From NCBI RefSeq assembly GCF_001039475.1, contig NZ_LELK01000015.1, positions 124,001 through 188,000 of the forward strand: a DNA stretch of 64,000 nt. Direction: 5' to 3'. This DNA is from Guptibacillus hwajinpoensis. GTDB taxonomy: Bacteria > Bacillota > Bacilli > Bacillales > Guptibacillaceae. How positions within the stretch are numbered: the first letter of the stretch is position 1; each line of letters begins with the position of its first letter. Position numbers and translations under genes: made by a program. This document shows positions 3,141 through 43,396 of this stretch, piece by piece. Below the pieces are notes generated by a model. That model did not search any database, had not been told where the DNA came from, and was given only the letters and a program-made list of their open reading frames with translations.

Positions 3141-3195
3141 TTTCCACTCAACATCCAATCTACTAAAGCCGATAATATAGGTATTACAATAAAAC

Positions 3196-3287
3196 TGAAA
3201 AGGCAAACCTGTTGAAAAGCAGGGACGCAAAGTTATGGGCCTGTCCGCACGAATGCGAATGGCTGCCAGACTGCCAGGCTACCTTTT
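3196..3287 (+). promoter_or_regulatory. Cyclic di-GMP-I (GEMM-I) riboswitch
   Basis: The leader carries the hallmark GEMM-I words in order: GGCAAACC (3202-3209), a P2 hairpin, GGGACGCAAAG (3222-3232), GGCCT, then a P3 region ending GCCAGGCTACC (3273-3283). P1 can form between AAAAGG (3198-3203) and CCTTTT (3282-3287). The same CCTTTT could pair with AAAAGG (3305-3310) in the Shine-Dalgarno of the next gene. Ligand-stabilised P1 would therefore free the ribosome site, which suggests a translational ON switch. The aptamer identity is well supported by conserved words; the direction of control is inference. Confidence 0.88.
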
Positions 3288-41129: not shown

Positions 41130-41262
41130 AGTTGATTTGCGCTCCAGGTGCTCGCTTTCCGCGGGGCGGGCGGTGAGCCTCCTCGGCGCACAAAAACATT
41201 GCGCATGTGGGGTCTCCCCTGTCCCGCTAGTCCCGCAGGAGTCGAGCACCTTCCGCTCCAAG
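41130..41262. repeat. MITE-like element, GC-rich core copy
   Basis: The core runs from gcgctccaggtgctcgctttcc through CCCGCTAGTCCCGCAGGAG to ttccgctccaag. The centre forms GGCGCacaaaaacattGCGC. Terminal inverted repeats are badly decayed here. Confidence 0.75.
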
Positions 41263-41330
41263 AACCATGAAATGTGGCGTTTTACATAACCCCATTTTTA
41301 AGAAAGAACATTCTTTAACAATCAAAAGAA

Positions 41331-41353
41331 AAAAGTCCCTGCAAAGGGACTTA
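41331..41353 (-). terminator. Terminator of the GNAT gene
   Basis: On the minus strand AAGTCCCTTTGCAGGGACTT followed by TTTTCTT; it overlaps the stop codon of the GNAT gene. Confidence 0.8.
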
Positions 41354-41905
41354 AGCTTCTAGCTGAACTTCAATTGTTTCTGGACGTTCACGCATAGTGT
41401 GAAGAAGATAATTATCACGTTCGATTTCATATAAATGATAAGATTTTTCTCCTGTATTAATCTTCTGGAAGATTTCAGGCCATTTTTCATTGGCCTTTTC
41501 TACAAAAGGAATTTTCTCAGCAGCTTTTTGGGAACGAATGTTACCTTGATTAATGCGCATGAAAATCGTTTGAATTTGTTTTTCGAAAAACATTTCATTG
41601 AAAAATGCATCTTTTGCAAGCTGATTATAGCCTTTTCCGTGGTAAGGAGTTCCAATCCACGTACCGAGAAATCCTGTTTGTTGATCAAGGTCATATAGGT
41701 TAATCGTTCCAATAGGGTTACCCCATTCATCTAGAATAGTGCGAGATATTAACTCACCTTGTTGTTCAGCTTCAATGATTTGCTTCGTTAGAAACAAATA
41801 TTCTTCGTATGAGTTTGCTTTATGACGTACAAATGGGAAGACAGCTGGGTCAACCATCAAGTCAAATAGCACATGACATTCCGACAGGTCACGATGTTTA
41901 ATCAT
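41351..41905 (-). CDS. GNAT family N-acetyltransferase (RimL-like)
   Basis: The 184-residue acetyltransferase has an acyl-CoA-binding region LGTWIGTPYHGKGYNQLA (about 104-121; G-x-x-x-G-K-G form of motif A) and the INQGNIRSQKAAEKI segment typical of RimJ/RimL-like enzymes. It should acetylate a protein N-terminus or small amine; the substrate is unknown. ATG 41905 has AGGAGGG six bases upstream. The leader is extraordinary: a tRNA-shaped sequence followed by competing hairpins that can hide the ribosome site (see the entry at 41906-42040). A terminator overlaps the stop. Confidence 0.85.
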   Translation of the reverse strand: MIKHRDLSECHVLFDLMVDPAVFPFVRHKANSYEEYLFLTKQIIEAEQQGELISRTILDEWGNPIGTINLYDLDQQTGFLGTWIGTPYHGKGYNQLAKDAFFNEMFFEKQIQTIFMRINQGNIRSQKAAEKIPFVEKANEKWPEIFQKINTGEKSYHLYEIERDNYLLHTMRERPETIEVQLEA

Positions 41906-42040
41906 GAGTTTCCCTCCTGTCGAGGGCAGACTTAACCCCACCCTCGAATAATAGTATGTTGAATTATTATTCGGGGTGGGAATCGAACCCACTAGGACCA
42001 GTCATTGCTGGTGGCGCACCAATTGCCTTCCCATATTCAT
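41906..42040 (-). promoter_or_regulatory. Structured leader of the GNAT gene with tRNA-like element
   Basis: Three alternative helices follow the tRNA-like part on the minus strand. First, a 16-bp hairpin (41937-41980, one bulge, 11-nt loop) captures the 3' T-stem strand and 3' acceptor strand. Second, CGAGGG (41946-41941) can pair with CCCTCG (41926-41921). Third, CCCTC can pair with GAGGG of the Shine-Dalgarno (41926-41912). They are mutually exclusive, as in riboswitch-like control. Structures were read by eye. Confidence 0.6.
41968..42036 (-). ncRNA. tRNA-like (pseudo-tRNA) domain
   Basis: It has a perfect T-arm GTGGG-TTCGATT-CCCAC (41992-41976). An anticodon-type stem ACCAG/CTGGT has a six-base loop. 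A D-arm GGC/GCC has loop AATTGGTGC. The acceptor pairing ATATGGG/CCCGAAT has one mismatch and one G-U. It is about 69 nt, lacks U33 and a normal seven-base anticodon loop, so it is not a working elongator tRNA. Confidence 0.6.
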
Positions 42041-42063
42041 TTATAAAGTTGTTAGTTCATTTT

Positions 42064-42091
42064 ATTTTAATTACAAAAATATCATACTCAA
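42064..42091 (-). promoter_or_regulatory. Promoter for the tRNA-like leader and GNAT gene
   Basis: On the minus strand TTGAGT, 16 bp, TAAAAT, placed about 30 bases before the acceptor start of the tRNA-like element. Confidence 0.5.
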
Positions 42092-42121
42092 ATTTAATTA
42101 AAAAAGATACTGGTTTTTTGC

Positions 42122-43243
42122 TTATTTTTTATGAATAATTTTACCATCTATCATCGTTAATAATGGTCTAGCTTCGAAATGAAAAGGGTGATGAGACCAT
42201 AGTACTAAATCAGCGTCTTTTCCAACTTCAATGCTACCAATTCGGTGGTCAACACCAAGACTTCTGGCAGGATTAAGAGTAATGCCTTCAAGTGCTTTCT
42301 CTTCACTTAAGCCTTCTCTGACAGCAAGGGCTGCACATACGTTTAGATATTGAATAGGAACGTACGGATGATCGGTTGTGATGGAAACTTCAATGCCGTG
42401 GTTATTAAGAATGCCATAGGTTGCCCACGTTTTGTTCTTAAGTTCAATTTTAGAACGCCTTGTCATAGTAGGTCCTACGGATACTTTAAGGTTCTGTCCA
42501 CTAAGGTCATCAGCGATTAAATGTCCTTCGGTACAGTGCTCAATTCTAAGATCAAGATCAAATTCTCTTGCAAAGCGTACAGCAGTTAAGATGTCATCAG
42601 CCCGGTGGGCGTGTATCCTTACTGGAATTTCACGATTAAGCGCAGCGATAATTGGAGCAATGCGCGGATGTTCTTTACGATCAGATCGACTTGCGTGATA
42701 GAATGCTTCCCGTAGCAGTCCCATAATTCCCATACGTGTAATGGAGTCATTGTTTGAATGGCTATGCACTCGCTTGGGATTCTCTCCTAAGGCTATTTTA
42801 AGTCCAGCTGTTTCTCTAACGATCATTTTCTCTACATTTTTGCCGTGTGTTTTCAAAACAGTCGTAGTTCCACCAATAATGTTTGCGCTTCCAGGCATAA
42901 CCTGAACAGACGTAACACCAAACGCAATAGCATCCTTAAACCCAACGTCGAGTGGGTTAACACCATCTAGTGCACGTACGTGAGGGGTAAGAGCTTCTAC
43001 AGTTTCGTTTGCATCATTTCCAGCCCATCCTGTACCTTCATCATAAAGACCGACATGAGTGTGTGCATCAATTAAGCCAGGGAGAAGATGACATCCTGTC
43101 CCGTCTATAACAGTCATCTCAGGCTGCTCTGGAATGGAAGGGGCAACTTCGTGAATAAGTCCATCTTTAACTAGAACATCAGCGGAAGGAAGGATGGTTG
43201 AAGATATTGGGTAAACTCTTGCTTGTTTAATTAATATTGTCAC
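42122..43243 (-). CDS. Amidohydrolase (imidazolonepropionase-like)
   Basis: The 373-residue metal-dependent hydrolase has the amidohydrolase barrel signature: GLIDAHTHVGL (metal-binding H-x-H, about 58-68), a later RIHAHRADD and IEHCTEG with metal His residues, and TTDHPYVP with the catalytic Asp. C-terminal GKDADLVLWSHHPF is typical of the family's beta domain. Substrate unknown; the group includes imidazolonepropionase-related and prolidase-like enzymes. GTG 43243 is placed after AGGTGAG; GTG 43252 lies inside that site. No clear terminator lies between it and the tRNA-like leader. Confidence 0.85.
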   Translation of the reverse strand: MTILIKQARVYPISSTILPSADVLVKDGLIHEVAPSIPEQPEMTVIDGTGCHLLPGLIDAHTHVGLYDEGTGWAGNDANETVEALTPHVRALDGVNPLDVGFKDAIAFGVTSVQVMPGSANIIGGTTTVLKTHGKNVEKMIVRETAGLKIALGENPKRVHSHSNNDSITRMGIMGLLREAFYHASRSDRKEHPRIAPIIAALNREIPVRIHAHRADDILTAVRFAREFDLDLRIEHCTEGHLIADDLSGQNLKVSVGPTMTRRSKIELKNKTWATYGILNNHGIEVSITTDHPYVPIQYLNVCAALAVREGLSEEKALEGITLNPARSLGVDHRIGSIEVGKDADLVLWSHHPFHFEARPLLTMIDGKIIHKK

Positions 43244-43396
43244 ATTACTCACCTATCATCTGTTAGTTTTGGTTAGGGATCCTGTCACCATTTTGTTAAT
43301 TTATTATAGCCATTTATTATCATAGATGCTAGCTCGCTGACGGTAGAAACTTTGAAGTATTATTGGATAGGCGAGTGAAACTGAAATTTCACTCGA

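Follow-up and report, generated by a model that had tools for sequence, protein, structure and literature searches.

We identified a conserved leader upstream of a GNAT acetyltransferase gene in Guptibacillus hwajinpoensis that is probably a cis-acting, riboswitch-type ON switch with a tRNA-like four-arm fold as its sensor. It has the general hallmarks of riboswitches, namely a conserved structured 5′ leader, an aptamer-like domain, and an expression platform of mutually exclusive helices. At the level of sequence, comparison of homologous leaders demonstrates the helices, their mutual exclusivity, their conservation, and their association with the GNAT gene. We found no description of the leader in the open-licence PMC literature, and no GNAT motif turned up in the main text of ncRNA-discovery papers; as far as these searches reach, the leader appears to be an RNA switch that has yet to be described. 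If this interpretation is correct, the leader would be a second tRNA fold serving as an mRNA gene-control sensor beside yjdF, to which it has no match in sequence. It would also be a widespread switch, found under at least 35 genus names, and a compact one in which formation of a tRNA elbow is read out as exposure of the Shine-Dalgarno (SD) sequence or as antitermination. The GNAT family would gain an inducible control logic and, with it, a route to its substrate.

The Leader and Its Parts

The window, by which we mean the whole stretch of DNA analyzed, comprises 64,000 nt of G. hwajinpoensis (assembly GCF_001039475.1, contig NZ_LELK01000015.1, positions 124,001–188,000). A sequence-only reading had proposed a tRNA-shaped leader whose hairpins control a GNAT gene. 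Rereading the sequence, we found the tRNA-like leader, the 16-bp competing hairpin, and the SD-sequestering hairpin at the coordinates it had claimed (table 1), together with the T-arm and the 6-nt P3 loop lacking U33 that it had described. The CGAGGG:CCCTCG helix of that reading is also present, and its extent had been drawn too short: the predicted alternative helix has 9 pairs, 3 of them G-U, formed by GAGGGTGGG (41945–41937) and TCTGCCCTC (41930–41922). The observation is confirmed as real and is larger than first reported.

Table 1. Positions of the leader elements and neighboring features in the window (all on the minus strand)
Feature	Position	Strand	Details
tRNA-like domain, candidate sensor (P1, D-arm, anticodon-type arm, T-arm)	41973..42032	-	Comparative pairing
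P1 (acceptor)	42032-42030 : 41975-41973	-	GGG : CCC; only 3 bp
D-arm (P2)	42013..42027	-	Stem GGC 42027-42025 : GCC 42015-42013, loop AATTGGTGC
Anticodon-type arm (P3)	41997..42012	-	ACCAG 42012-42008 : CTGGT 42001-41997
T-arm (P4)	41976..41992	-	GTGGG-TTCGATT-CCCAC
Competing hairpin H	41937..41980	-	41980-41965 with 41953-41937, 16 bp, A41944 bulged
H strand	41937..41945	-	GAGGGTGGG; predicted partner in H (OFF) or anti-SD strand (ON)
Anti-SD strand	41922..41930	-	TCTGCCCTC; predicted partner H strand (ON); CCCTC portion pairs with SD (OFF)
SD-sequestering hairpin	41912..41926	-	CCCTC 41926-41922 : GAGGG 41916-41912
Shine-Dalgarno	41912..41917	-	GGAGGG; from sequence
GNAT acetyltransferase gene	41351..41905	-	184 aa, Pfam Acetyltransf_3; start codon 41905-41903
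Terminator-like hairpin 3′ of GNAT gene	41333..41352	-	1 found, 0.4 expected
Putative -10 of leader's own promoter	42081..42086	-	TATGAT, context GAGTATGAT; weak -35 ~17 nt upstream
Amidohydrolase gene directly upstream of leader	42122-43252	-	

In the predicted fold, hairpin H takes up the 3′ strands of both the T-stem and P1. The minimum free energy fold of the 140-nt leader (−48.8 kcal/mol, z = −2.79 relative to shuffles) includes both the SD hairpin and H. Folded in isolation, the 70-nt domain adopts a cloverleaf whose stability does not exceed that of its shuffles (z = −0.12); single-sequence folding is therefore insufficient for the tRNA shape, and the case beyond chance is a comparative one.

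Covariation in the tRNA-Like Domain

We aligned 142 distinct tRNA-like domains, of which 141 were collected by a looser regular expression and one (L223), which that expression missed, was added by hand; 28 low-scoring genomes had been chosen from a search of the order with our covariance model R1, and their loci were fetched and read. Across the 142 sequences, 98.3% of the 2,411 cells of the cloverleaf are paired and 7 of its 17 pairs show two-sided changes. None of 500 shuffles, which like the rank tests and shuffled linkers below take no account of kinship, reached any of five covariation measures, and sliding the partners by 1–3 columns lowered pairing to 30–52%. Compensatory changes occur in the D-, anticodon-, and T-stems, exemplified by GAC:GTC in the D-stem of L023 and, in the T-stem, by GTAGG:CCTAC (L198, L199, and L230) and ATGGG:CCCAT (L219 and L224–L226); among the loci read, the former T-stem variant is confined to family f49 and the latter to genus g89 (family f40). 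In 37 of the 142 sequences the innermost pair of the anticodon-type stem is open, and because P1 hardly varies, the evidence for it is its conservation. The sequence-only reading had made its case depend on homologous loci keeping the tRNA-like helices with compensatory changes and had pointed to the T-arm and the 16-bp hairpin as the place to look for covariation in related genomes. The outcome favors it: both of these elements covary, as do the D- and anticodon-stems.

The D-loop TGG, which resembles G18 G19 of tRNA, and the T-loop TTCGATT are invariant in all 142 sequences; the regular expression behind most of this collection required both motifs, and the 28 low-scoring covariance-model loci also keep both. 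The junctions and the D-loop are more invariant in sequence than pairing would require, J1/2 being AA (AAA in L027, L233, and L234). The anticodon-type loop is free in length and sequence between species, and the segment between ACCA and TGGT, which holds the loop and the inner stem pairs, has 107 variants in 170 leaders.

That the domain is a decayed tRNA gene or a functionless chance cloverleaf can practically be dismissed: its T-arm resembles tRNA T-arms and the isolated domain is as stable as its shuffles, but conservation, compensatory changes, and the gene association contradict this reading. As to what stabilizes the fold, we prefer a small molecule, most likely one that the GNAT would help deal with. 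The main rival, which we consider unlikely, is a protein or complex that recognizes the tRNA elbow (RNase P, TruB, a T-loop methylase, or the ribosome), in which case the leader would report the load on the tRNA machinery. The invariant D-loop and T-loop motifs are the elbow letters of real tRNAs, and the lack of constraint on the anticodon-type loop and on acceptor length would be expected if the elbow alone were read; yet tRNA hallmarks are missing (the acceptor has 3 bp, U8 is absent, and by our position mapping there is a G at A21), and invariance extends to junction letters for which elbow binders have no known need. Less likely again is that the leader is a built-in decoy tRNA held by free elbow-binding machinery, so that a shortage of or damage to tRNA would be measured in cis and the GNAT would act on tRNA-linked or translation-poisoning compounds; to our knowledge, a leader that monitors tRNA status by itself being a tRNA, and not by binding one, would be without precedent among mRNAs.

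Competing Helices and Exposure of the Shine-Dalgarno Sequence

We analyzed the region between sensor and gene in 181 distinct leaders, leaving out L235, for which our script returned no start codon. Except in L232, the best local duplex for H comprises at least 11 pairs. Its A/U part is swapped between lineages with pairing kept (one position is A-U in 120 leaders, U-A in 57, and C-G in 1), and a strand's own partner has a mean rank of 0.214 when ranked against other leaders' strands (n = 180; without compensation the expectation is 0.5; kinship ignored). A similar fit exists between the H strand and its anti-SD counterpart: the own partner has a mean rank of 0.260 among 66 distinct strands (n = 178; kinship ignored), and the duplex has −14.2 kcal/mol versus −9.4 for shuffled linkers (shuffles that ignore kinship). 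Individual compensations between these two strands are TGGGGCAG:CTGCCCCA in L098 and L109 and GGGTGGCG:CGCTACCC in L233. The covariation of H and the compensation between the H and anti-SD strands support the earlier proposal that an ordered chain of mutually exclusive helices sets GNAT translation.

We then enforced either fold in 176 leaders, 5 of the 181 being dropped (4 without a recognized SD and L232, which has no H). The SD is predicted to be unpaired with a mean probability of 0.572 when the tRNA fold is enforced versus 0.252 when H is enforced. The tRNA fold exposes the SD more than H does in 165 of the 176; changes greater than 0.2 are toward exposure in 103 leaders and go the opposite way in none. 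With shuffled linkers the corresponding values are 0.399 and 0.391, and shifts greater than 0.2 number 48 in each direction among 352. The window's own leader (L001) shows little predicted shift, from 0.33 with H to 0.43 with the tRNA fold. An earlier comparison against the free fold had given 0.57 versus 0.26 and greater exposure in 162 of 177 leaders, with one leader clearly opposite. The H state lies below the tRNA state in 165 of the 176 leaders, by 6.6 kcal/mol on average, in fold energies that omit tertiary contacts and kinetics; OFF is thus the expected resting state, and a stabilizer would be needed for ON.

From these comparisons we infer the following direction of switching. The tRNA-like domain would be transcribed first. 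When held by its ligand, it would make the 3′ strands of the T-stem and of the 3-bp P1 unavailable, H would form its A/U part alone, the H strand would pair with the anti-SD strand, and the freed SD would turn GNAT ON. Without stabilization, H would invade the T-stem and P1, and the released anti-SD strand would pair with the SD, leaving GNAT OFF.

A run of at least four U, starting no more than two bases from the SD arm, gives 44 of the 181 leaders the look of an intrinsic terminator, and judging from this arrangement the last hairpin may also terminate transcription, a mode of control in some lineages that was absent from the earlier proposal. In these leaders the anti-SD strand would, when the sensor is not stabilized, form a terminator-like hairpin instead and so keep GNAT OFF. 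Their SD is predicted to be unpaired at only 0.38 with the tRNA fold versus 0.13 with H (n = 41), and in L119 the last hairpin is closed in both states, so that any control in the U-run leaders would have to be co-transcriptional.

These features also bear on whether the leader is a ligand-free translational enhancer, in which the tRNA-like fold would recruit the ribosome and the hairpins would merely tune the outcome. We regard this as very improbable: in a study of the yjdF riboswitch (PMC9142559), grafting tRNAs into the leaders of mRNAs increased their translation 2- to 6.3-fold in vitro, but the chain of covarying competing hairpins and the U-runs indicate switching and not constant enhancement.

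The expression platform is not universal, because L232 keeps the tRNA-like domain without H, L198 shows poor pairing between the H strand and the linker (−2.7), and leaderless GNAT copies exist. Both L232 and L235 have the tRNA-like domain followed by a different stretch before the start codon, which may be another expression platform.

Distribution and Association with the GNAT Gene

A DNA search yielded a match at an E value of 2.4e-10 or better in 82 of 101 relatives, and in each of 30 loci fetched from this search the leader is followed by the same GNAT gene. A pattern scan of named genomes, with a pattern that required the conserved letters, added at least 119 further stretches. Among the matches listed, the GNAT gene lies ~64–119 nt downstream of the leader in all 149 loci (30 plus at least 119), which include some genomes twice and represent 133 distinct leader sequences. 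By record titles the named loci cover at least 35 genus names, one record being labeled Paenibacillus sp.

Because the pattern demanded conserved letters, we built the covariance model R1 for whole-genome searches. Matches at E ≤ 0.01 were obtained in 245 of 299 sampled genomes of the order Bacillales, 225 of them strong (E of 3.7e-11 or better) and 20 weak (E of 4.6e-4 to 0.008). A class sample of 299 genomes gave 22 strong matches, 18 in the same order and 4 in a single other family (G303, G344, G395, and G554), as well as one borderline match (G565, E of 9e-5); a phylum sample of 199 genomes returned three already-known carriers and one genome with weak matches (E of 4.3e-5). There were no exact matches to a 23-base core pattern in viral contigs, and the one plasmid record found, from Cytobacillus spongiae, again has the leader followed by GNAT.

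In a second sample of 199 genomes of the order, a protein search (E ≤ 1e-35) found the GNAT in 161. The leader is present in 158 of these, the exceptions, established by reading the upstream stretches, being G042, G084, and G161. In the opposite direction, of 32 genomes lacking a strong leader, 30 have no GNAT at E ≤ 1e-10. The GNAT lies downstream of all 229 leader copies fetched, which comprise the 181 distinct leaders and include repeat fetches of the same genomes and a few loci fetched via the GNAT itself; no other gene was seen under the leader among them. GNAT homologs without a leader are L206 (G084), L207 (G042), L245 (G161), and L246 (G193); the last is a second copy, and G193's other GNAT copy is preceded by a leader. 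By these counts the leader is an accompaniment of one GNAT family, near one-to-one, which makes the question of the ligand directly testable.

Such pairing with a single gene family would also fit an operator for the gene's own product. Autoregulation by binding of the GNAT protein to its tRNA-like leader is nevertheless improbable, since the geometry makes binding activating and would produce positive feedback, which is unusual, and GNAT copies without the leader exist.

The GNAT Protein

The AlphaFold model of the GNAT is confident (pLDDT of 91.1) and, among its best five matches, resembles SpeG polyamine and FdhC sugar acetyltransferases at 12–14% identity; a sequence search returned three generic acetyltransferase chains at E values of 0.002–0.006. 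These matches are too weak to indicate a substrate, and a link to polyamines is only an idea. The NCBIfam IleRS-GNAT exception model scored 25.5 bits, far below its cut-off of 1999, and PADLOC gave no match. A longer GNAT frame of 213 aa that starts at GTG 41992 and runs through the leader was rejected because the leader-to-start spacing varies (~64–119 nt) and the stretch is conserved as RNA.

Comparison with Known RNA Classes

A canonical tRNA gene was rejected, since the acceptor has 3 bp and the loop has 6 nt here and varies elsewhere, versus 7 bp and 7 nt with U33. ARAGORN found no tRNA in the window and accepts 3 of 36 homologous loci, the window's own being among the misses. With Rfam, the window has no tRNA at the gathering score, and the leader matches no Rfam 15 family; at E values up to 10 there are chance-level matches and a tmRNA T-arm (E of 0.0024, 17 bases). 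Eight divergent homologous loci gave the same 17-base match in two cases and no further Rfam match at E ≤ 0.1; in L198, two sRNA matches below threshold lie several hundred bases from the leader. No T-box was found in the window at the gathering score, nor in 41850–42150 at E ≤ 10. No tRNA parent is claimed, the alignment being good only in the T-arm: one homolog's domain compared with 11 tRNAs from the fetched stretches gave z values of −1.0 to 4.0 (Gly 4.0, Trp 3.7, and His 3.6). In genome G000 the best other R1 matches are four tRNA-Gly(TCC) genes (20.8 to 25.2 bits), and those sub-threshold matches that were checked are tRNA genes. In L187, L193, and L018, ARAGORN calls the tRNA-like domain tRNA-Lys or tRNA-Cys, and genomes of this kind may carry false tRNA annotations. 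The Rfam scan of the window also detected a c-di-GMP-I riboswitch at 3192–3278 on the plus strand (77.4 bits).

A processing site, at which a cut by RNase P or RNase Z would release the partner strand of the anti-SD and so activate or stabilize the mRNA, is highly improbable. The T-arm and D-loop are tRNA-like and a cut 3′ of P1 would also free GAGGGTGGG, but acceptor and T-stem together have 8 bp versus the usual 12, and the ARAGORN results above, with few loci accepted, weigh against it.

T-box leaders and thrS-type operators are likewise mRNA leaders that use tRNA or tRNA mimicry for downstream control. T-box leaders bind tRNA instead of resembling it; the thrS operator mimics the anticodon arm for its synthetase, unlike the present leader, whose anticodon-type loop is not conserved.

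By analogy, the closest system in its working is the yjdF riboswitch, without a sequence match. As reported (JBC 2022, PMC9142559), the yjdF/azaaromatic riboswitch (RF01764) has a tRNA-like aptamer in which ligand promotes the contact between D- and T-loops and turns translation ON, and in its OFF state P4 nucleotides pair to the RBS. It shares with our leader a tRNA-like four-helix junction, a D-loop/T-loop elbow, and a variable third arm and, with our model of the leader, a ligand that holds the tRNA-like fold for ON and an equivalent of the T-arm that pairs elsewhere when OFF (PMC9142559). The leader differs in having AA as J1/2 with no extended purine-rich pocket, a canonical TTCGATT T-loop, a P1 of 3 bp, and a separate hairpin H and anti-anti-SD helix that would relay the signal, and its gene is a GNAT. 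Membership in the yjdF class was rejected: RF01764 matches neither the window, the eight homologous loci, nor G000, R1 finds nothing in nine yjdF loci, and the purine-rich pocket is absent. Because neither model finds the other's sequences and several genomes carry both elements (e.g., G053, G071, G073, and G092), the leader is not a yjdF member.

Orphan riboswitches upstream of GNAT genes have precedent; the guanidine-IV variant Gd4v is such an orphan candidate, but it is a variant of the guanidine-IV motif, and the available part of its source describes no tRNA-like fold (PMC9788692). The B. cereus pseudo-tRNA tRNAOther also places a tRNA-like element inside a longer regulatory RNA; it differs in its T-arm, judging by primer sequences, and in the available part of the source its larger transcripts have so far been found in the B. 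cereus group and are predicted to target mRNAs in trans, and the word "acetyltransferase" is absent (PMC3399842).

Promoter and Genomic Neighborhood

A promoter previously proposed for the leader, TTGAGT-16-TAAAAT (42091–42064), is a chance-type match (1 found versus 2.6 expected), and the call is probably wrong. Of 179 regions upstream of leaders, 99 contain a GTAT[GAT]AT box (2 of the 181 leaders were dropped for too little upstream sequence), versus a mean of 16.3 in shuffled upstream regions. It sits 26–125 nt upstream of the domain, often behind a T-rich stretch; the window's copy, GTATGAT at 42087–42081, is a TATGAT-type box that overlaps and precedes the promoter of the earlier proposal. 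Transcription from such a promoter would place the leader on one transcript with the gene.

In 85 of the 152 leaders with enough sequence, the 1,400 nt upstream include an amidohydrolase gene in the same orientation; clustering of ORFs gave at least 53 of 104 loci, a minimum, since many loci end a short way upstream. Since this neighbor is absent in 67 of the 152, the leader goes with the GNAT independently of the amidohydrolase, and we claim no role for an operon with it. In another locus from the window's genus (L013, G008:C1:1776744-1776835), an insertion of ~92 bp separates the tRNA-like domain from the promoter-like region; the flank is not broken there, its upstream part lying that much further away. 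Downstream of the GNAT in the window, a GC-rich stretch at ~41130–41270 looks like a dispersed repeat at the sequence level, because a near copy lies beside the GNAT of L206, which belongs to another family.
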